Assembly: GCA_026415505.1 (NCBI GenBank)
Contig: JAOAGY010000030.1
Span: 1 to 34,718, forward strand
Direction of reading: 5' to 3'
Origin: Chlorobiota bacterium
Lineage (GTDB): Bacteria > Bacteroidota > Ignavibacteria > Kapaibacteriales > NICIL-2
DNA length: 34,718 nt
The position numbers were made by a program, and so were the translations under genes. Within the stretch, counting starts at the first letter, position 1, and every line of letters starts with the position of its first letter. This document shows positions 22,917-34,465 of the stretch, piece after piece. The notes under the pieces were generated by a model. That model saw only the letters and a program-made list of their open reading frames with translations. It had not been told where the DNA came from and made no database searches.

Positions 22917-22979
22917 AGGAAACTCGCTGCCGTACCATCGTTGCTTGTCGTTGACTGTCGCACCGTGTACACCGATGCC

Positions 22980-25900
22980 ATGACAGAGTTTCCGTTTGCC
23001 GTTGGCGATGTGCTCGCCGGCGACTTCTGGCCTGAACCGGTGCGGGTGGTCGCCATCCACCCCATCGGCGACGGTGTGAAGATCGAAGCAGTCGGCATTG
23101 AGCACAGACAGTTTTACGAACGCTGCCTCGACCCGTCGGATGTAGCCCGCGTGCGCCGTGTCACGCTCCAGCAGCGCGATTTCGCCGGCAACGCGGAAGC
23201 GTTTTTCCTTGCTGTCGAAGCCCAGCGCATTCGCAACGCCCATCAGTTCGATCCGCTGCTGGCGGTCAACATTTCGCAGGTGGACCCCTTGCCGCACCAG
23301 ATCGAGGCGGTCTATCACGTCATGCTCAAGCGCTCTCCCTTGCGCTTTTTGCTCGCCGACGACCCCGGCGCCGGCAAAACCATCATGACCGGCTTGCTGC
23401 TCAAGGAGCTCAAATACCGCGGCCTTGTCGAACGCACGCTCATCGTCGTGCCCGGTCATCTCAAAGACCAATGGCTGCGCGAAATGAAAGAACGCTTCGG
23501 CGAAACCTTCGCGATCGCCGATCGCAGCATGGTCAATGCCAACTGGGGGCACAACATCTGGAACGACCAGCCGCAACTGATCACCTCGATGGATTTCGCC
23601 AAACAAAAAGAAGTCCGCGACATCCTCGAAACCGTTCACTGGGACCTGGTCATCGTTGACGAAGCGCACAAGCTGGCTGCCTGGAGCTACGGGCGCGACA
23701 TCAAAAAAACCGACCGCTACCGCCTCGGCGAAGTGCTCTCCCGAACGAGCGCCTTTTTGCTTTTCCTGACCGCCACGCCGCACCGTGGCGATACGGAAAA
23801 CTTCCGCCTCTTTCTCGACCTGCTCCAACCGGGCATGTTCGCCACTGCCGAGCTGCTCGGTGAATCGCTCCAGAACCGCGACAACCCGCTCTTGCTGCGC
23901 CGACTCAAAGAAGACCTCAAGGATTTCCACGGGCGACCGCTCTTCCCGCCGCGGCGTGTCGTCACGCGAATCTACCGACTCAACGACGCCGAAAAACAGC
24001 TCTACAACGAGGTGACCGCATACGTCGAGCAATACTACAACAAAGCGCTGACGACCGACAAACGCAACGTCGCCTTTGCGCTGCTCATCCTGCAGCGCCG
24101 CATGGCATCGAGCGTCCGCGCAGTGCGCCGCTCGCTCGAACGCCGCAAAAAACGACTCGAAGAACTGCTCCAGATCGGCACGTGGATGGCGGAAGGAGGG
24201 CAATTCGACGAAGACGCCCTCGAGGACGCACCCGAAGCCGAACGCCTCGCCAAAGAACAAGAGCTGCTCGAACGCCTCACCGCCGCCGAAACGCGCGAGG
24301 AACTGCAAGCAGAAATCGAAAAGCTCGACAAGCTCATCGCCCTGGCACGCCAGGCTGAACGCGGAGAAATCGAAACCAAACTCAACGAACTCCGCGCCGT
24401 CATCAGCGACGAGCGCATCCAGCAAACGGGCGAAAAAATGCTCGTCTTCACCGAATCCAAAGACACGCTCGACTACCTGGCTGAAAAACTCCGCGCCTGG
24501 GGCTATTCGGTGGTCACTCTCCACGGAGGCATGAACCTCGACGACCGCATCCGCTCCGAACACGACTTTCGCCACAACGCCCAAGTGATGATCTCCACCG
24601 AAGCCGGTGGCGAAGGCATCAATTTGCAGTTCTGCTCGCTGATGGTCAACTACGACCTGCCGTGGAATCCCAATCGGCTCGAACAACGCATGGGACGCAT
24701 CCACCGCTACGGACAGCAAAAACAAGTGCACATCTACAACCTCGTCGCACGCGACACGCGCGAAGGCATGGTCCTCACAGCATTGTTCGATAAGCTCGAA
24801 CGCATTCGAGAGGCTTACGGAACCGATCGCGTCTTCGACGTCGTCGGTCAGGTGTTGGCAGGGCGAAGCCTCAAAGACCTCATCGTGGATGCTATCGCCA
24901 ACCGCCGCAGTATGGATGAAATCGTCCGAGACATCGAAGCAGTACCCGACAAGGACGCAATCGAGAAAGTGCGCCAGGCGTCGCTCGAAGCACTCGCCAC
25001 ACGACACATCGACCTCACCCGCATCCTCGGCGAAGACCGACGCGCCCGCGAACAACGGCTCGTGCCCGAATACATCGAAAGCTTCGTCCAGCGCGCATGC
25101 ACGTATCTCGACGTTACCATCCAACAGCGTACCGATGGCTTCTGGCGCATAGCCTCGATCCCCTCCTGGCTCCGAAACGTCCCGAAAGACTTCGAACACC
25201 GCTACGGTCCGGTTCATTCTGCCTACACCAAAATCGCCTTCGACAAAACCGCCGCACGCCGCGCACAAGCGGAGTTCGTCGCGCCCGGACATCCCCTGCT
25301 CGAAGCAATCGTCGAGCATATATCGAACCACTGCAGCGCCGATCTCCAGCGCGGCGCCACTTTTGCCGATCCCGGCGGTCGCTACGACGGTCTGCTCTGG
25401 TTCGTCCTCGGCGAGATTCGCGACGGCTGGGATCGGATCGCCGGTCGGCGCCTGTTCTGCCTCTATCAGCCTGCCGACGGCAGCCCCATCACCGCACTCG
25501 ATAGCAGCGTGCTGTGGGACCTGAAACCGACCGACAACCCGATGCCGCAACCCACGACCGCCTCCGAAGACGAGCTGACTTCCTTCGTCCTCGATCGCCT
25601 CCTTTTGCCCTACCGTGAGCAACTGCTCCAGCAACGCCAGCGCGAAGCCGAGATCATACGCAAGTACGGATTGCGCTCGCTCGATCAAGCAATCGCTGAA
25701 TCGGAATCGAAACTCCTCGACTACGAGACCCGCCGCGCCAAAGGCGAATCGCTGCCCGATGTCGAACTCAACAACGAACAACACCGAAAACAAAAACTGC
25801 TCGCCCGCAAAGAGGCTCTCGAGAAAGACATCCGCCTGCGAACGAGCCTCCTGCGGATTCCCCCGACTATTCTCGGCGTGGCGCGTGTGGTCCCCGACGA

Positions 25901-26297
25901 GGTGCCGACGCCGGAGATGCGCTCCGATGCCGAAATCGAAGCCGTCGGCATGCGCGTGGCGATGGACTACGAACGCCAGCAGGGACGCACTCCGCTCGAT
26001 GTCTCCAAAGAAAATCTCGGCTACGACATCCGCTCGACCGCGCCCGATGGCTCGGTGCGCTACATCGAGGTCAAAGCCCGTGCAACGACCGGCTCGATCG
26101 CTCTGACTCCCAACGAGTGGTATATGGCGCAACGCTTCGGCGATGAATACTGGCTCTACGTCGTCGAACATGCCGCCACCACCCCGCAGCTCTACACCAT
26201 CGAAAATCCGAGCCAGAATCTCCAGGCGCAACCCGTCTTCGATCTGGTACGCTACGTCGTGACCGACTGGAAAGAAACTTCTCGCCCCTCATCGTAG
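22980..26297 (+). CDS. SNF2/RapA-type helicase with C-terminal DUF3883 domain (defence island)
   Basis: The protein has 1105 residues. The superfamily 2 core begins with PHQIEAVYHVM. Walker A is DPGAGKT (128-134, the usual 'DE-GLGKT' here being DDPGAGKT), followed by DEAH (227-230) and TATPHRGD (264-271). A charged coiled coil covers about 370-470, and the second RecA domain ends in RMGRIHRYGQ (about 570-579). Near 1014 a DUF3883 domain starts (GYDIRSTAPDGSVRYIEVKA, then NEWYMAQRFGDEYWLYVV). Its E1030-x-K1032 could be part of a nuclease-like fold. Related large helicases (DrmD in DISARM class 1) translocate on phage DNA in defence systems. The gene is followed 126 bases later by the DUF1156 methylase. 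I start at the ATG at 22980; a TTG at 22941 is less likely. Confidence 0.88.
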   Translation: MTEFPFAVGDVLAGDFWPEPVRVVAIHPIGDGVKIEAVGIEHRQFYERCLDPSDVARVRRVTLQQRDFAGNAEAFFLAVEAQRIRNAHQFDPLLAVNISQVDPLPHQIEAVYHVMLKRSPLRFLLADDPGAGKTIMTGLLLKELKYRGLVERTLIVVPGHLKDQWLREMKERFGETFAIADRSMVNANWGHNIWNDQPQLITSMDFAKQKEVRDILETVHWDLVIVDEAHKLAAWSYGRDIKKTDRYRLGEVLSRTSAFLLFLTATPHRGDTENFRLFLDLLQPGMFATAELLGESLQNRDNPLLLRRLKEDLKDFHGRPLFPPRRVVTRIYRLNDAEKQLYNEVTAYVEQYYNKALTTDKRNVAFALLILQRRMASSVRAVRRSLERRKKRLEELLQIGTWMAEGGQFDEDALEDAPEAERLAKEQELLERLTAAETREELQAEIEKLDKLIALARQAERGEIETKLNELRAVISDERIQQTGEKMLVFTESKDTLDYLAEKLRAWGYSVVTLHGGMNLDDRIRSEHDFRHNAQVMISTEAGGEGINLQFCSLMVNYDLPWNPNRLEQRMGRIHRYGQQKQVHIYNLVARDTREGMVLTALFDKLERIREAYGTDRVFDVVGQVLAGRSLKDLIVDAIANRRSMDEIVRDIEAVPDKDAIEKVRQASLEALATRHIDLTRILGEDRRAREQRLVPEYIESFVQRACTYLDVTIQQRTDGFWRIASIPSWLRNVPKDFEHRYGPVHSAYTKIAFDKTAARRAQAEFVAPGHPLLEAIVEHISNHCSADLQRGATFADPGGRYDGLLWFVLGEIRDGWDRIAGRRLFCLYQPADGSPITALDSSVLWDLKPTDNPMPQPTTASEDELTSFVLDRLLLPYREQLLQQRQREAEIIRKYGLRSLDQAIAESESKLLDYETRRAKGESLPDVELNNEQHRKQKLLARKEALEKDIRLRTSLLRIPPTILGVARVVPDEVPTPEMRSDAEIEAVGMRVAMDYERQQGRTPLDVSKENLGYDIRSTAPDGSVRYIEVKARATTGSIALTPNEWYMAQRFGDEYWLYVVEHAATTPQLYTIENPSQNLQAQPVFDLVRYVVTDWKETSRPSS

Positions 26298-26308: not shown

Positions 26309-26343
26309 TTTGTAATTTGTGATTTGTGCAATTTGTAATTTGC
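26309..26343. repeat. AT-rich TTTGTaA / TTTGTgA reiterated repeat
   Basis: The 35 bases between the helicase stop and the methylase start repeat the unit (A)ATTTGT(A/G) four times with small changes, in otherwise G+C-rich surroundings. Nothing coding is visible here. It may be part of a dispersed intergenic repeat, or an AT-rich promoter element for the methylase gene. Confidence 0.5.
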
Positions 26344-26423
26344 AGCAGTGGGAAAGCGTGCACACGCATTGCATGCGCCCTGCGGTCGGTTTCTTCACTG
26401 CACACGCTCCAACATCGAAAACC

Positions 26424-29186
26424 ATGACGCCACGCCTGATCGAAGCGGACTTCCCGCTGCGCATCGTCTCCGAAGAATCCGTGCGTGAAAAAAATATCCG
26501 CCACGGGCACATCTCCACGCTGCACATCTGGTGGGCACGACGGCCGCTGGCGGCATCGCGTACTACGGCGCTGGCGGCGCTCGTGCCCGATGACCCTGAC
26601 CGCCGCGAGGAACTGCTGCGTCTTGTGGCGCAAATCTCGCCGTGGGAAGCGGTCAATGGCAGCGATGCATGGAGCGAAATCCTGCTTGAGAAAGCCCGCG
26701 CTCTGATCCGCCAGGCTTACGGCGGAAGTGCCCCGCGCGTGCTCGACTGTTTTGCCGGTGGCTGTAACATCGCCCTGGAAAACCTGCGCCTCGGATGCGA
26801 AAGCCACGCACTCGACATCAACCCCGTTGCGGTGCTGTTGGGCAAAGCCGTGCTCGAACTGCCGCAGCGCTTCGGCAAACCCGGCGCTGTTGCCACCGTG
26901 CCGCTGCCGCCATCGCACCGACGGAAACGCGACATGTTCGACGTCGAAGACGATCGAAACGCCTCGCCCCTGCTGGTCGCGGTCAAAGCGTGGGGCGAGT
27001 GGGTGCTCGAGGAAGCCCGCCGCGAGCTGGAGCGCTTCTATCCGAAGGACGAAGATGGCTCCATCCCAGTGGGCTACATTTGGGCGCGCACGCTGCCATG
27101 CCAGAACCCGGGTTGCGGCGCGGAAATCCCGCTCATGCGCCAAACGTGGCTCGCAAAGAAGGCAAACAAACAGGTCGCGCTGCGCCTGGTGCCCAACCAC
27201 GCCGCCCGGCGCATTGACGCCGAGATCGTCGGGCAAAACGGCGAAGCGTTAGATTTCGACCCCGACGAGGGCACCGTCGCCCGCGCCAACGTGCGCTGCC
27301 CCTTGTGCGGCGGCACGATTGACGACAAAACCACCCGCCGCCTCTTCCGCGAGGGCAAAGCAAGCCAGCGCATGATGGCGGTGGTGCTGCACACCCCTCG
27401 CCCGCAGCGCGGGAGAGGGGCTGGGGGTGAGGGCAAACGCTACCGCCTGCCCACCGCGCGCGACCTCGACGCCTACCGCGCCGCCGAAGAAGCGCTTGTA
27501 GGGGCAAGGCGCCGCCTTGCCCAATCCTGGGGCATCGAACCCGTGCCGGATGAGCCGCTGCCAGCAGTGGAAACGCTTGGCTTCCGTGTGCAACGCTACG
27601 GCATGACCCGCTGGGGCGACCTGTTCAACAGCCGGCAGAAACTGGCGCTGATCACCTTTGCCGATGCGGTGCGCCGCGCCCATGCCGAGATGCGCGCCCA
27701 GGGCGCCGACCCCGAATTCGCCAAAGCGGTGGTGACGTATTTGGGGTTTGTGGTGGACATGACTGCTGCGTTTTGCAATGTACTGGCTCGGTGGGAGAAC
27801 ACATCCGAAGCCATCAAACAATTGTTCTCACGCCAAGCACTGCCGATGCTCTGGGACTATGCAGAGCTGAACCCGTTCAGCGGCTCAACAGGAAGTAGCG
27901 AGGCAGGCTGGGAATACTACGAGAAAGTGCTTAGCCATTTGGTCGCCATCGGAAACAATGCTGTCGCTGGCTGCGCCCACCACGGCACCGCCACGGCGCT
28001 GCCCTGGGAGGACAACTTCTTCGACGCGGTGCTGACCGATCCGCCCTACTACGACAACGTGCCCTACAGTGACCTTTCGGACTTTTTCTACGTCTGGCTC
28101 AAGCGCACGCTGGGCGACTTGTATCCGGAGCTTTTTGCCACGCCGCTCACGCCCAAGTCGCAGGAAATGGTTGCCGATGCCAGCAAGGCTGGCGGGATGG
28201 AAGAAGCCAAACGTCGCTTCGAGGAAATGCTCACGCAGGCGTTCCGTGAGATCGCCCGCGTGCTCAAGCCCGACGGTATTGCCGTCATCGTCTTTGCCCA
28301 CAAGACCACCGAAGCTTGGGAAACGGTCATCAACGCGTTGCTGGAAGCTGGGTTGTACATGACCGCTTCGTGGCCCATCCACACCGAGATGCGGTCGCGC
28401 CTTCGGGCGCAGGAGTCGGCGGCGCTGGCGTCGAGCATCTACATGGTCTGCCGCAAGCGCACCACAAACGAAATCGGCGAGTTCCCCACCGTGCGGCGCG
28501 AGATCGAAGCGCGTGTGCGGGCAAAGCTTGCGCAGTTTTGGGACGAAGGCATCCGCGGGGCGGACTTTTTTATGAGCGCCATCGGTCCGGCGGTGGAGGC
28601 GTTCGGCAAATACGTCCGCGTCGAGAAACTCTCCGGCGAGCCGGTCGGCGTAGCGGAGCTTTTGGAGCATGTGCGGCGTGTGGTGGCGGAATTTGCCCTC
28701 GAGCGCATTGTGCAGAGCGCGCAGCTCGGCGGCGTGGATGCGCTGACGCGCTTTTATCTGCTCTGGCGCTGGACCTACAACCACGCCAAGGTGCCGTTCG
28801 ACGAGGCGCGCAAGCTGGCTTCGGGCGTCGGCGTGGAGCTCACCGAGCATTGGGGACCGGGCGGGCTGGTGCGCAAGGAAAAAGAGTTCGTTCGGCTCCT
28901 GGCGCCGCAGGAACGCGCGGGCGATGAGCGTTTTGCGCAGCAAGAAGAGTTCGCGACGATGATCGAGGCGCTTCAGCGGGCGTGTCTGCTGTGGGAGCGC
29001 AGTCGCACCAAAGAGCTCGATGAGCACTTGAGCGCAACCTTTGGAGCGAACGAAGCCTTCTGGCAGGTGGCGCAGGCAATCAGCGAAGTGCTGCCCGACG
29101 GCGACAAAGAAAAGCAACTGCTGCAAGGCTTGCTCTACGGGCGCAAGCGCTACGGGCAGCCGCAGCAGGGCACATTTGACATGTGA
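26424..29186 (+). CDS. DUF1156 adenine-specific DNA methylase with Zn-ribbon (COG1743-like)
   Basis: The protein has 920 residues. The DUF1156 start is textbook: [19 protein letters not shown], then [23 protein letters not shown] motif I is [18 protein letters not shown] (107-124) with D131 next. A Zn-ribbon is formed by C226/C231 (CQNPGC) and C292/C295 (CPLCGG). The catalytic motif is DPPYYD at 539-544, followed by [15 protein letters not shown]. The expected product is N6-methyladenine, marking host DNA or acting in defence beside the helicase and DUF499 ATPase. The ATG at 26424 gives the family N-terminus. Residues 324-337 and 359-368 are encoded by palindromic repeats inserted in frame in the linker between the Zn-ribbon and the C-terminal methylase half. 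Confidence 0.93.
27394..27420. repeat. G+C-rich palindromic repeat inside the DUF1156 methylase gene
   Basis: CCCCTC-G-CCCGC (27394-27405) mirrors GCGGG-A-GAGGGG (27409-27420) around an AGC loop, and the unit continues as GCTGGGGGTGAGGG. This resembles a dispersed repeat seen between genes in many bacterial and metagenomic genomes (read as spurious '[13 protein letters not shown]' peptides on the other strand). Here it is translated in frame as [14 protein letters not shown]. Confidence 0.8.
27502..27522. repeat. Second palindromic repeat inside the DUF1156 methylase gene
   Basis: GGGCAAGGC and GCCTTGCCC form a perfect 9-base stem around a GCC loop, preceded by GTAG. It is of a different sequence family from the repeat 81 bases upstream. 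It is translated in frame as [10 protein letters not shown] (from 27498). Confidence 0.75.
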
Positions 29187-29393: not shown

Positions 29394-29738
29394 ATGAACG
29401 AGCAAACGAAAGACAAGACAATGAAGCATTCGCGCTCGCGGCGCACGTTGTCGCTGGCGGAGGTTTTGGCGATCCTTCGCGATCTTGAGCAAGAAGCGCG
29501 TGAGCGCTACCGGGCTGAGATCGTCGGCGTGTTTGGTTCCTATGCTCGCGGCGAGCAGCGCCGCCGTAGCGACATAGATGTGCTGGTTCGCTTTCTCGAT
29601 GGCGCTTCGCTCTTTGACCTTGTGAGATTAGCGGATATGCTCGAAGAGCGGCTCCGATGCAAGGTGGATGTTGTTTCGGAGCGCGGAATCCGTCCGGAGC
29701 TGCGCGAGCGGATTCTCAGCGAGGTTGTGCAACTATGA
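29394..29738 (+). CDS. mntA: MNT-type nucleotidyltransferase (MntA-like antitoxin)
   Basis: The protein has 114 residues with the minimal nucleotidyltransferase signature G48-S49-Y-A-R-G-E ... S59-D60-I-D62-V and a third acidic residue at D92 in KVDVVS. Paired with a HEPN protein, such enzymes neutralise the toxin by AMPylating a tyrosine near its active site, using ATP. The ATG at 29394 is preceded by GAGGA (29385-29389); MKHSRSRR at 29421 is an alternative start. The stop overlaps the HEPN start as ATGA, the usual arrangement for this toxin-antitoxin family. The catalytic residues look intact, so the antitoxin should be active even though its partner is shortened. Confidence 0.9.
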   Translation: MNEQTKDKTMKHSRSRRTLSLAEVLAILRDLEQEARERYRAEIVGVFGSYARGEQRRRSDIDVLVRFLDGASLFDLVRLADMLEERLRCKVDVVSERGIRPELRERILSEVVQL

Positions 29739-30010
29739 AACGCGACTGGCGGCTATTCTTGCGAGACATCCTCGAAGCAATGGACGCCATCGAGCGTTTT
29801 GTGGAAGGAATGAGCTTGGAGGACCTCTATCGAGACGACAAAACAGCCAGTGCTGTTATCCGAAAATTCGAGATCATTGGCGAAGCTGCTCGCCACGTTC
29901 CTTCGCATCTACGCCGAGCGTATCCGGACATCCCGTGGAAAGAAATGGCTGGAATGCGAGACCGACTGATTCACGGTTACTTTGGCATATCAACGGAGTC
30001 AAATTTATGA
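29735..30010 (+). CDS. hepT: HEPN (DUF86, HepT-like) toxin, C-terminally truncated
   Basis: The protein has 91 residues, against roughly 110-140 for the family. The fold starts normally (WRLFLRDILEAMDAIERFVEGM, then TASAVIRKFEIIGEAARHVP, then PDIPWKEMAGMRDRLIHGYF). The R75-x4-H80-x-Y82 motif, which carries the RNase active site and the AMPylated tyrosine in HepT, is complete. After HGYFGI the usual DxxxVW... helix is replaced by STESNL and a stop, and the following methyltransferase gene starts within that stop (ATGA). I see no remnant of the missing helix in the next gaps. I infer truncation by insertion of the R-M cassette. Toxicity may be lost or altered. Confidence 0.85.
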   Translation: MKRDWRLFLRDILEAMDAIERFVEGMSLEDLYRDDKTASAVIRKFEIIGEAARHVPSHLRRAYPDIPWKEMAGMRDRLIHGYFGISTESNL

Positions 30011-30999
30011 GCGCGTCATTGTTGCTTCCACGTTATAAGTCCATCGAAACAAGCTTCAGACCAGATGCTGAGATTGTCCTTTTTTCTGGCGATGTGGGTG
30101 AATTCATTGCCCAGGTCCCCGATAATTCGGTTGCACTTGTTGTGACTTCGCCTCCTTACAATTTGGGTAAACAATACGAAAATCGGGTTTCAATCGAACG
30201 ATATTTGAAAGCGCAGGCGCACTTGATCACTCAGCTTTATCGAATCTTGCGAGAAGATGGCAGCATCTGTTGGCAAGTAGGCAATTTTGTCGAAGACGGA
30301 GAGGTTTATCCTCTCGACATTCTGTATTATCCGATTTTCAAAGAATTGGGAATGAGGTTGCGCAATCGAATTGTCTGGAAGTTCGGACACGGGTTACATG
30401 CCTCTAAGCGTTTTTCAGGGCGCTACGAGACCATTTTATGGTTTACAAAATCCGATCGCTACATCTTCAATCTGGATGCCGTTCGCGTGCCAGCAAAATA
30501 TCCCGGCAAGCGGCACTTTAAGGGGCCAAACAAAGGTAAGCCCTCCGGGAATCCCTTAGGAAAGAATCCCTCGGATGTATGGGAAATCTTGGTACAGGAC
30601 TGGGAAGACTTAGTTTGGGATATTCCCAACGTCAAGTCCAACCATCCCGAGAAGACCATCCACCCTTGCCAATTCCCTATTGAGTTGGTTGAGCGCTGTG
30701 TCCTTGCCCTGACCAATGAAGGCGATTGGGTATTTGACCCCTACATGGGTGTTGGTTCGGCTCTCATCGCGGCTTTGATGCATAACCGGCGGGCAATGGG
30801 TTGCGAGAAAGAAGTTGCGTATGTGGAGATAGCCCGCCAACGCATTTTGGATTACTTTAATGGGGTGCTTCGATACCGCCCTATGGGAAAACCGGTTTAT
30901 CAACCTACAGGCAAGGAGAAGGTAACTCAGATTCCTAACGAATGGAAAGAATCATCCCAGCCGCGGCTATTGGAACAACAACAAGGTGAATACAAATGA
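30007..30999 (+). CDS. SPPY-class DNA methyltransferase of a type II R-M pair (probably N4-cytosine)
   Basis: The protein has 330 residues in beta-class order. The catalytic motif TSPPYN (47-52) comes first, then a target-recognition region (about 120-215), then SAM motif I DPYMGVGSALIAALMHNRRA (244-263) with the acidic E267 after it. The SPPY form is common in N4-cytosine enzymes, which suits the BglII-like partner; N6-adenine is possible. GGAG at 29994-29997 lies 9 bases before the ATG. The start overlaps the HEPN stop and the stop overlaps the endonuclease start, both as ATGA. Base composition drops here: hand counts of 60-base lines give 26/60 G+C at 30181-30240, against 37/60 at 32041-32100. 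This points to recent transfer. Confidence 0.92.
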   Translation: MSASLLLPRYKSIETSFRPDAEIVLFSGDVGEFIAQVPDNSVALVVTSPPYNLGKQYENRVSIERYLKAQAHLITQLYRILREDGSICWQVGNFVEDGEVYPLDILYYPIFKELGMRLRNRIVWKFGHGLHASKRFSGRYETILWFTKSDRYIFNLDAVRVPAKYPGKRHFKGPNKGKPSGNPLGKNPSDVWEILVQDWEDLVWDIPNVKSNHPEKTIHPCQFPIELVERCVLALTNEGDWVFDPYMGVGSALIAALMHNRRAMGCEKEVAYVEIARQRILDYFNGVLRYRPMGKPVYQPTGKEKVTQIPNEWKESSQPRLLEQQQGEYK

Positions 31000-31583
31000 T
31001 CATCGCAGGCATTTACTCTTTCAATGGTGGTGAAGAAGTTATCACTTCCCAATATCCAACAGAACTTGAAGAAGTGAAACAAGTGATTGCTGCCGTTGAC
31101 AGTGCGAAATGTAAAACAAAAACCAGTCGGGAAAAGACCATGCCTGGTAGAACACTCTACAGCCCTCGTGATTTGAACAGGGCTTTTAGAGAAGAGTTCA
31201 AATTACGCGGATGGAAAGGTCATAAAGTTCAGTGTGACTATTCCACCGAGTATTATGTACCTGGATTCACTCCCAATACTTCACCTAAAGGAGCTTTTCG
31301 GGAGATGGATTTTGTCAAGAACCGGGTAGGTGTCGAGGTTCAATTCGGCAAGTATGCTTTCATGGTCTACAATGTTTGTGCAAAGATGACCATTTTTCAT
31401 AAACTGGGAGTGATAGACGTGGGCATTGAGATTGTGCCGATCAAATGCTTCGCAGAAGAAATGTCCACAGGTGTTTCATACTATGAACAGTTCGTTTGGG
31501 ATTTGGAGCATCGTGGCGTTGCGGATATTGATATTCCTGTGCTTGTTCTGGGAGTGACCGGCTTGAAGTATGAAGCGAATTGA
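30996..31583 (+). CDS. BglII/BstYI-like type II restriction endonuclease
   Basis: The protein has 195 residues. The core FREMDFVKNRVGVEVQFGKY gives D105-x8-E114-x-Q116, the same spacing as the BglII active site (D84, E93, Q95), where Gln stands in for the usual Lys. The following AFMVYNVCAKMTIFHKLGVIDVGIEIVP matches the BglII/BstYI fold family. Known members cut within GATC-containing sites (AGATCT, RGATCY), so a related site is plausible but unproven. It is translationally coupled to the methyltransferase by an ATGA overlap at 30996-30999. Hand count gives 23/60 G+C at 31021-31080, far below its neighbours. No frameshift is seen. Confidence 0.85.
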   Translation: MIIAGIYSFNGGEEVITSQYPTELEEVKQVIAAVDSAKCKTKTSREKTMPGRTLYSPRDLNRAFREEFKLRGWKGHKVQCDYSTEYYVPGFTPNTSPKGAFREMDFVKNRVGVEVQFGKYAFMVYNVCAKMTIFHKLGVIDVGIEIVPIKCFAEEMSTGVSYYEQFVWDLEHRGVADIDIPVLVLGVTGLKYEAN

Positions 31584-31819: not shown

Positions 31820-34465
31820 ATGAACACACAACCCTGGATACACGTCGTTACGCCGCACGAAGACATCCGCCGCGGGCGGCTCGATGAATCGGTCTTTGCG
31901 GCAGACCTGTCGGACGTCGTCGCCGATCGCGGTCCGCTCGAATATCGCGATGCGGCGCTGTTTTTTCGTAAGACCTATCCGACGCAAGGTCTGGTAGAGT
32001 TGCTCTCTGCCGTGCTCGGTCGGCTTTCGGGCAAAGACTCGGGCGAAGGCGTCATCCAGATTCAAACGCCGTTCGGCGGCGGCAAAACGCACAGCCTGAT
32101 CGCTCTGTATCACATCGTCGCGCATGGGCGCGACTTGGGCGATGAGGTGGCAGAGATACTCAAGCGCGCCGGACTCGACCGCGTTCCCGAAGCGCGCGTG
32201 GCGACATTCGTCGGCACCGCTGCCGATGCGCTCAAAGGGAAGACGCCGTGGGGCGAGCTGGCGGCGCAATTGGGACGCTATGAGCTGCTTGCCGATCACG
32301 ACCAGAAGCGCCGCGCGCCGGGGAAAGACCTGCTGCACAAACTCTTGAGCGAAGCACCGACGCTCATCCTGATGGACGAGGTCGCCGAGTATGCCGTCAA
32401 AGCGCGCGACTTCCGCGATCAGCTCGTGGCGTTCTATCAAGAGCTGACCGAAACGGTCAAGGTGCTGCCGCAGTGTGTGTTGGTAGTGACGCTACCATCG
32501 AGCGCGCCGTATGGCGAAGAGGGCGAGCGGTCGCTGCACGAACTCCAGCAGGTGTTCAAGCGCGTGGAGACTATCCGCACGCCAGTCGAAGGCGAGGAGG
32601 TGTACCAGGTCATCCGTCGGCGGCTGTTCGAGACCATCGGGAGCGATCGCGACATCAAGCGCACCGCCGATGCGTTCGTGGCGCTGTATCAGCAGATCGG
32701 CGACGACCTGCCGCGGGAAGTTCGCGAGCCAGCGTATCGCGACCGCATGATGAAAGCCTATCCGTTCCACCCGGAAATCATTGATGTTCTCTTCGAGCGG
32801 TGGAGCACGTTTCCCGATTTTCAGCGCACGCGCGGTGTGCTCCGGCTATTGGCGAACCTCGTCAGCGAGTTGTATCAGAAGCGCCATTCGGCGCCGCTCA
32901 TTTTGCCGGCGCATTGGAACCTGGCAAATCCCGCTGTGCGCGGCGAGTTCTTGCGCCACATCGGCAGCGAGTATCAGGGCGTCATCGCCAGCGACATCGC
33001 CGCAAGCGGCAATGCCAAAGCCGAGCAGATAGACCGGCAGCTCGGCTCGGAATATGCGCGATTCGAGGTCGCCAAGGGACTGGCGACGGTGATCTTTTTC
33101 GGCTCGTTCAGCGGCAGCGAGCGGCAAGGAGTCGGCATCCAGCGGTTGCGGCTGGCGCTGTTGCAGCCCGAGCTACCGCCGGCGATCGTCGGCGATGCGC
33201 TCCGGCGGCTGGAAGAGGAGCTGTGGTATGTGCACGCCGAGCAGGGAATCTATCGCTTTTCCACCAAGCCCAATCTCAACCGCGTCATCGTCGAAAAAGA
33301 AGAGGCGGTTCGTCCCGAGCAAATCGCCGAAGAGCTTCGCGATCGTTTGGCAAAGCTTGCCGGGCGCGAGCTGCAGGTGGTGCTTTGTCCCCGAACACCA
33401 CAGGACGTTGCAGACACGCGCGAGCTGAAGCTTGCCGTGCTCGATCCCGACCGCATGCGCACCGCAAACGACACGGAAACGTTCGTGCGCGAGCTTTTGG
33501 AAAAGTGCGGGCAGACGTTTCGCGTCTGGCGCAATGCGATCGTGGTGCTGGTGGCTGACGGGGGCGAACTTGCCGGTTTGCGGCAGCTTGTCAAGCGCTT
33601 TTTGGCGTATCGCGCCATCGGCGAAGACAAAGCGCTGATGAAGCAGCTCTCGGACGAAAGCCGCCGCACGGTCGAGGGCAAAATCAAGGAGCTGGAAGGC
33701 GGCATCGCGCACCGCATCATGAGCACCTATCGGCATTTGGCAAAAGCTGCCGAAGGCGGCGTGCAGTGGTTCGACATGGGATTGCCCACGGTCGGCGCCG
33801 AGCGGACGCTGGCTGGGCGCGTCGTGAGCTACTTGAAGGGGGAAGACCTGTTGCTCGGCAAAATTTCGCCGCAGCGCGTGGTGCAGAAAGCCATGCGGGC
33901 GGACGAGGCGGAAAAGACGGTCGCCGACATCTGGGATGCGTTCTTGCGCTATCCGAGCATGCCGATGCTGGAAAGTTTTGCCGTGCTGCAAGCAGCGCTG
34001 GCAGACGGCGTGCGCGAAGGCGCCTTCGGGCTGCGCATCGGCGATCGGACCTACTTCCGTGAATCGCTCGCGCCGGATCGCATCGAGCGGGAAGCAGTGA
34101 TCGTGCGCGATGTGGCGGAGCCAGCAGCGCACACAACCGAGCTGGCAGCAGTCGCTGAAGCGGTAACGTCGCAGCAAATCACAGCGGATGCGATGCCGAG
34201 CGTGCAGAGCCTTGCTGCGCCGGCGGCATCATCGAGCATGGGGCGTCGCGTTCAGCAGTATCGTCTAACGGCACAAATCCCCTGGGATCAGCAGTCGCAT
34301 TTCTTCAGTGGGGTGGTGGTGCCGTTGCAACGCGAGAGCGCAGAGCTGCGGATCGTGATCACACTCGAAGCACGCGGTGCTATCGCTGAAACGACGCTCA
34401 GACACCAGGTGCGCGAAACGTTGCAGCAGATCGGAGCTAACGTTCTGCGCGAGGAAACCGAGTGA
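31820..34465 (+). CDS. DUF499 AAA+ ATPase (COG1483-like) of the defence island
   Basis: The protein has 881 residues and no membrane segment. After an N-terminal region (DLSDVVADRGPLEYRDAALF), Walker A reads TPFGGGKTHS (83-92) and Walker B LILMDEVAEY (182-191), as in DUF499 proteins. A helical region with FHPEIIDVLFERWSTFPDFQ follows (RTRGVLRLLANLV after it), the conserved second half of the ATPase module. DUF499 ATPases recur next to DUF1156 methylases and large helicases in defence islands; the mechanism is not established. GAGG at 31808-31811 precedes the ATG by 8 bases. G+C returns to the level of the helicase and methylase genes (37/60 at 32041-32100). It ends 9 bases from the stop of the convergent ndh gene. 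Confidence 0.9.
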   Translation: MNTQPWIHVVTPHEDIRRGRLDESVFAADLSDVVADRGPLEYRDAALFFRKTYPTQGLVELLSAVLGRLSGKDSGEGVIQIQTPFGGGKTHSLIALYHIVAHGRDLGDEVAEILKRAGLDRVPEARVATFVGTAADALKGKTPWGELAAQLGRYELLADHDQKRRAPGKDLLHKLLSEAPTLILMDEVAEYAVKARDFRDQLVAFYQELTETVKVLPQCVLVVTLPSSAPYGEEGERSLHELQQVFKRVETIRTPVEGEEVYQVIRRRLFETIGSDRDIKRTADAFVALYQQIGDDLPREVREPAYRDRMMKAYPFHPEIIDVLFERWSTFPDFQRTRGVLRLLANLVSELYQKRHSAPLILPAHWNLANPAVRGEFLRHIGSEYQGVIASDIAASGNAKAEQIDRQLGSEYARFEVAKGLATVIFFGSFSGSERQGVGIQRLRLALLQPELPPAIVGDALRRLEEELWYVHAEQGIYRFSTKPNLNRVIVEKEEAVRPEQIAEELRDRLAKLAGRELQVVLCPRTPQDVADTRELKLAVLDPDRMRTANDTETFVRELLEKCGQTFRVWRNAIVVLVADGGELAGLRQLVKRFLAYRAIGEDKALMKQLSDESRRTVEGKIKELEGGIAHRIMSTYRHLAKAAEGGVQWFDMGLPTVGAERTLAGRVVSYLKGEDLLLGKISPQRVVQKAMRADEAEKTVADIWDAFLRYPSMPMLESFAVLQAALADGVREGAFGLRIGDRTYFRESLAPDRIEREAVIVRDVAEPAAHTTELAAVAEAVTSQQITADAMPSVQSLAAPAASSSMGRRVQQYRLTAQIPWDQQSHFFSGVVVPLQRESAELRIVITLEARGAIAETTLRHQVRETLQQIGANVLREETE

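Follow-up and report, generated by a model that had tools for sequence, protein, structure and literature searches.

The window analyzed here, a stretch of 34,718 nucleotides, carries hmaA, hmaB and hmaC on its forward strand. The hmaB gene (26319..29186) encodes a DUF1156 adenine methylase (Pfam PF06634, 7.7e-20; PADLOC HmaB, 5.9e-135) and is an ORF of 955 codons, in which homology begins at the ATG at 26424. Since its neighbors match HmaA (22941..26297, an SNF2/DEAD helicase; PADLOC, 6e-219) and HmaC (31820..34465, a DUF499 ATPase; PADLOC, 2.2e-153), so that all three models find their match, the operon can be identified as an Hma defence system, into which a BglII-like pair of a methylase and a restriction enzyme is inserted between hmaB and hmaC, at 29668-31583. 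In motif I of HmaB (residues ~145-155), the sequence is DCFAGGCN, where every other homologue covering the site keeps FxGGG, mostly as DPFAGGG; this change may make the enzyme weaker or unusual.

Within hmaB, the structure of the two hairpins agrees to the base with the original prediction, which described hairpins of 27 and 21 bases, 81 bases apart, in the hmaB frame and without stops. The first, which we designate R1 (27394..27420, forward strand), reads CCCCTCGCCCGC-AGC-GCGGGAGAGGGG, with 12-bp arms containing one mismatch and a 3-nt AGC loop, and is part of the translated peptide PRPQRGRG. It is followed by a one-sided tag, CTGGGGGTGAGGG (27421..27433, forward strand). A conserved stretch of HmaB that aligns with homologues without gaps (27435..27496, forward strand) separates R1 from the second palindrome, R2 (27498..27522, forward strand), which reads GTAGGGGCAAGGCGCCGCCTTGCCC and is translated as VGARRRLA. 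Its hairpin (GGGCAAGGCG-C-CGCCTTGCCC, 27502-27522) has perfect 10-bp arms and a 1-nt loop, and is directly preceded on its 5' side by GTAG (27498-27501), giving GTAGGGGCAAGGCG-C-CGCCTTGCCC. The original prediction mentioned neither the one-sided tag of R1 nor the GTAG of R2.

Alignment with homologous methylases, 57-68% identical to HmaB of the window, reveals that the two hairpins differ in their effect on the length of the gene. Between conserved flanks, the R1 site spans 42 nt in the window versus 18 in L012 (peptide HHPGRTGKTY), a net gain over L011 and L012 of 24 nt, or eight residues. In contrast, at R2 a block running from GTA to TCC stands in for 10 codons and the homologues are of equal length, which rules out an insertion; over these 30 nt, nucleotide identity to four homologues is 23-30%, versus a median of 77% for the gene. 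The 14 and 10 residues that had been suspected of being insertions are thus reduced to eight added by R1 and a 10-codon replacement by R2, with a net change of zero. In a structure model of HmaB (mean pLDDT of 78), the residues of R1 (362-370, pLDDT below 50) form a disordered β-turn between two strands, while R2 lies inside a helix (380-404) with a pLDDT of ~90. As modeled, both hairpins are probably neutral to the fold of the enzyme, R1 being a disordered turn and R2 preserving the helix.

The linker was also proposed to be a landing site for repeats, and the homologues bear this out, since R1-type units are found in this region of the gene in three methylases. Besides the window, L014 (from a Chloroflexi MAG) has a related tag-hairpin-tag repeat at the R1 site, adding 17 residues in another frame, and in L017 (from a myxobacterial MAG) an R1-type repeat stands alone ~20 residues upstream of the site used in the window. 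Moreover, the same L017 ORF, in which PF06634 is accompanied by PF04480, holds a complete DUF559 domain with R1-type units on both sides, which shows that an hmaB-type gene can host such an element. In a tree, the window, L011 and L014/L015 form one clade whose internal branching order is not separated. The copies in the window and L014, which differ in frame and length, may therefore be two insertions, or one old insertion since remodeled, as the tree does not split them from L011. The DUF1156 homologues on plasmids that we examined have other inserts and no R1. Those of Geminocystis (L148) and Annamia (L151) plasmids have long in-frame inserts or unusually long frames, L148 containing a different repeat, MANGDGVMADGDDVMA, while on plasmid pAQ6 of Picosynechococcus PCC 7002 (L152) a stand-alone DUF559 gene is directly upstream of the DUF1156 gene. 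In L011, the final 29 HmaB residues are repeated ~1.7 kb downstream, a possible trace of an insertion like that of the BglII-like pair between hmaB and hmaC in the window.

Pattern searches of the draft genome show that both families are of low copy number. With up to three mismatches over the whole element, R1 and R2 are each found once. A relaxed core pattern brings the known R1-type units to four (the one in hmaB and three on contig C16), and GTAGGGGC palindromes of the R2 type are also four, on C10, C11, C16 and C28, i.e., three beyond R2 itself (C10, C11, and C16). The suspected resemblance to dispersed intergenic repeats is thereby lost, such low numbers ruling out abundant repeats of that kind, but the proposal of two different palindrome families that are mobile and translated in frame is supported, and both families recur in the genome. 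Exact matches to the tag in L043, L045, L046, L051, L052, L055 and L057 come with no hairpin, and we treated them as chance.

As for R2, its features point to a REP of the GTAG type. It is a short, GC-rich palindrome tagged at one end with GTAG, and it is repeated in the genome, although at low copy. RAYT-like genes, for which a search had been recommended, are present as well: the GTAGGGGC palindrome on C11 lies inside a RAYT-like ORF, with a Y1_Tnp match of 30.6 bits with neighbors in frame, and the one on C16 lies inside an ORF that shares this HxH and C-terminal sequence, as identified by reading only. Because these two palindromes are located in RAYT-like ORFs, the best reading of the sequence is that R2 would be a low-copy GTAG-type REP of a RAYT (HUH tyrosine transposase) system whose transposase is present. 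Elsewhere, RAYT (Y1) domains are embedded in frame in RecG (L142 and L145) and in Eco57I-type restriction-modification methylases (L143 and L146). A 1,288-residue frame around a RAYT in G043 was not accepted as a real gene, being a long frame in GC-rich DNA.

R1 has a different affiliation, with DUF559 nuclease elements rather than RAYTs, which the original prediction missed. The hsdS gene on C16 contains a DUF559 (Vsr-like nuclease) domain, fused in frame, with one R1-type unit on either side of it. Both units share sequence with the window: 24 nt of R1 and its tag, GGGAGAGGGGCTGGGGGTGAGGGC (27411-27434), are identical to the unit on the right of this domain, and the unit on its left carries the left arm of R1, CCCCTCGCCC, unchanged. 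R1 thus has the same hairpin and tag as units that flank DUF559, which is why we consider it a candidate end of a DUF559 element. The third C16 unit (L137, ~1916-1960) is in frame near the start of hsdR, next to both the fusion of hsdS with DUF559 and a RAYT-like ORF, within which a GTAG palindrome lies. Within hmaB of the window, a Pfam domain search found no DUF559 at the R1 copy. We have therefore classified R1 as a solo end or a deletion derivative rather than an element and, since no remnant of the domain is left, a solo insertion and an insertion followed by deletion look the same at this site.

The association between R1-type units and DUF559 extends across the phylum. When a single hairpin-plus-tag detector was applied to loci picked for strong DUF559 matches, it found 41 units in the 16.8 kb within 200 bp of DUF559 and 10 in the 185 kb of these loci that lie more than 1 kb away, so that units are 45-fold enriched near the domain (binomial p ~3e-35). 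The same detector found five units in 142 kb at 36 RAYT loci. This shows that R1-type units are a feature of DUF559 loci and not of RAYT loci, and R1 as a RAYT-linked repeat is not supported. With strict detection, units are present on both sides of eight of the 24 embedded and four of the 18 stand-alone DUF559 copies, and on one side of six and three, respectively. Their orientation is mixed, outward in many elements (e.g., in leucyl-tRNA synthetase L119) and inward at the hsdS copy.

In the phylum sample, 25 of ~145 DUF559 matches are in open frames of at least 350 residues, and the hosts of the 24 that we read include leucyl-tRNA synthetase (LeuRS, at two sites), RecG, methionine synthase (MetH), the β subunit of phenylalanyl-tRNA synthetase (PheT), HsdR, HsdM, and Eco57I-type and ISP-type enzymes. 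Comparison with known structures delimits the additions. RecG L125 aligns with 1gm5 over 109-515 and 519-762, residues 425-573 being extra, and in MetH L139 residues 739-901 are extra relative to 9ssp. All 24 embedded domains keep the motif DF...E-x-DG-(x)-H, and no Hint/intein family is found around them among Pfam matches at E 1e-8. Since the frame is also open throughout, the embedded DUF559 domain appears, from its sequence, to stay in the mature protein. An in-frame R1-type unit, NPSPLPSDTPLPRERGRGEG, also occurs in a UvrA (L047), uvrA being a reported host of in-gene palindromes (PMC3733652).

Close relatives provide empty sites. The LeuRS proteins of G186 and G049 share 92% identity over the query, but the one of G186 is devoid of the 148-residue insert, and DNA alignment places the ends of the element at inverted tags CCTCGCCCC and GGGGATGAGG. 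In one order, at least 14 of 143 MetH frames reach 1,365 residues or more, versus the usual 1,225-1,255. L154 is empty and 85% identical to L153. In L180 and L159, DUF559 is missing, with parts of the end repeats still present; a member of the genus of L180, L171, has the complete insert. Since the same sites (in LeuRS, MetH, RecG and the methylases) harbor both R1-type scars and complete copies, gain, loss and scarring should be traceable in close strains.

Together, these findings lead us to conclude that R1 probably represents a mobile DUF559 element that inserts in frame into loops, in the form of either a solo end or a copy with an internal deletion, and R2 a REP of the GTAG/RAYT type. 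For R1, this reading follows from the match of arms and tag with the units around the hsdS DUF559, the enrichment of such units beside DUF559, the in-frame hosts with empty sites in close relatives, the remnant copies in MetH and the whole element in the methylase L017. The complete element would consist of a DUF559 nuclease between hairpin-plus-tag repeats, inserted in frame into surface loops of genes. We infer that the nuclease would cut the empty target site, that repair would copy the element into the cut, as in homing, and that the only survivors would be copies that are in frame and located in loops. If the nuclease core were later deleted, a short translated scar such as R1 would be left, in this case in a tolerant turn of hmaB. 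We know of no biochemical activity of DUF559 in mobility; it is the conservation of the motif together with the empty sites that suggests that the nuclease drives its own copying. Whether selfish elements built around DUF559 form a separate class that lives inside proteins (in frame, with hairpin-plus-tag ends, in loops of essential and defence genes, unspliced, copied by their nuclease and leaving R1-like scars upon its loss) is to us an evenly balanced question. If they do, the origin of some translated palindromic peptides would be explained, and a Pfam family of unknown function would gain a role as an in-frame mobile nuclease. Literature searches that paired DUF559 with palindromic repeats or with LeuRS inserts yielded no relevant paper, the titles and abstracts of the papers found to mention DUF559 deal with other matters, and none of these searches gave a description of it as an in-frame element.

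Other explanations account for part of these observations. R1 could, like R2, be a REP/TIR-type miniature element that depends on a Y1 (RAYT/TIRYT) transposase in trans, DUF559 being cargo between its ends. Its anatomy, a hairpin with a one-sided tag, is that of a REP, and the tag GGGGTGAG fits the GGGGWSAS motif of the TIRs of TIRYT genes (PMC3733652). Furthermore, the site used by the RAYT elements in RecG (L142/L145) is the very site of DUF559 in L125/L126. However, these RAYT elements bear other palindromes, L142 being flanked on both sides by its own GTAGCACAGAC copies, and it is at DUF559 loci, not at the RAYT loci, that R1-type units are enriched, which makes this scenario unlikely. We are also doubtful that R1 and R2 are simply two independent solo repeats of the classical intragenic REP/RPE kind in a tolerant linker, with a link to DUF559 that is coincidental to this copy. 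While palindromes inside genes have been described from Rickettsia conorii as well as other genomes (PMC3733652), and R2 fits this description fully, R1 shares its arms and an identical 24-nt stretch with the repeats at the hsdS DUF559 of its own genome, and a homologue of the same gene, L017, holds a complete element.

Least of all do we favor chance hairpins in a GC-rich gene, which seem very improbable. Perfect arms of 10 bp or more appear in five of 60 synonymous-codon shuffles of the gene (~8%), which makes the palindromy of R2 weak evidence when taken alone. Nevertheless, both hairpins come from families recurring in this genome, and R1 is a clean addition of 24 nt. In the case of R2, chance is unlikely because of the GTAG tag, the recurrence, and the fall in identity to a random level within an otherwise conserved region.

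In-gene palindromes were already known, as RPEs and as intragenic REPs (PMC3733652), and comparison with established systems shows where R1 and R2 depart from them. The likeness to the in-gene palindromes of Rickettsia (RPEs) that had been proposed holds for R1, an in-frame insertion of eight residues relative to homologues, but not for R2, which brings no net insertion. As with RPEs, palindromic repeats are translated in frame in genes that are probably still functional. However, R1 is unrelated to them in sequence, occurs for the most part next to an embedded nuclease, and also exists in a complete form that encodes a protein; to our knowledge, RPEs have no such partner. With GTAG REPs/REPINs and their RAYTs (PMC3733652, PMC3116915), R2 shares the GTAG tag, the GC-rich stem with a short loop and the presence of similar palindromes in RAYT-like genes of its own genome, and R1 shares the hairpin-plus-tag plan. 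In contrast to these, R1 is without GTAG and goes with DUF559, both repeats are translated rather than extragenic, and R2 has replaced codons at equal length. TIRtrons (PMC3733652) have the TIR motif that the R1 tag fits, but the gene enclosed by R1-type units is DUF559, not a tyrosine transposase, and sits in the frame of a host gene. A further parallel is offered by inteins and by the homing endonucleases of introns, some of them Vsr-like: these place a nuclease in frame, or inside conserved genes, at sites that are themselves conserved, and DUF559 likewise occupies conserved sites that are empty in close relatives. Unlike inteins, DUF559 elements gave no Hint domain among the Pfam matches, keep the frame open throughout and end in a hairpin and tag; if our reading is correct, they would represent, alongside inteins, another way for a nuclease to reside inside essential enzymes.
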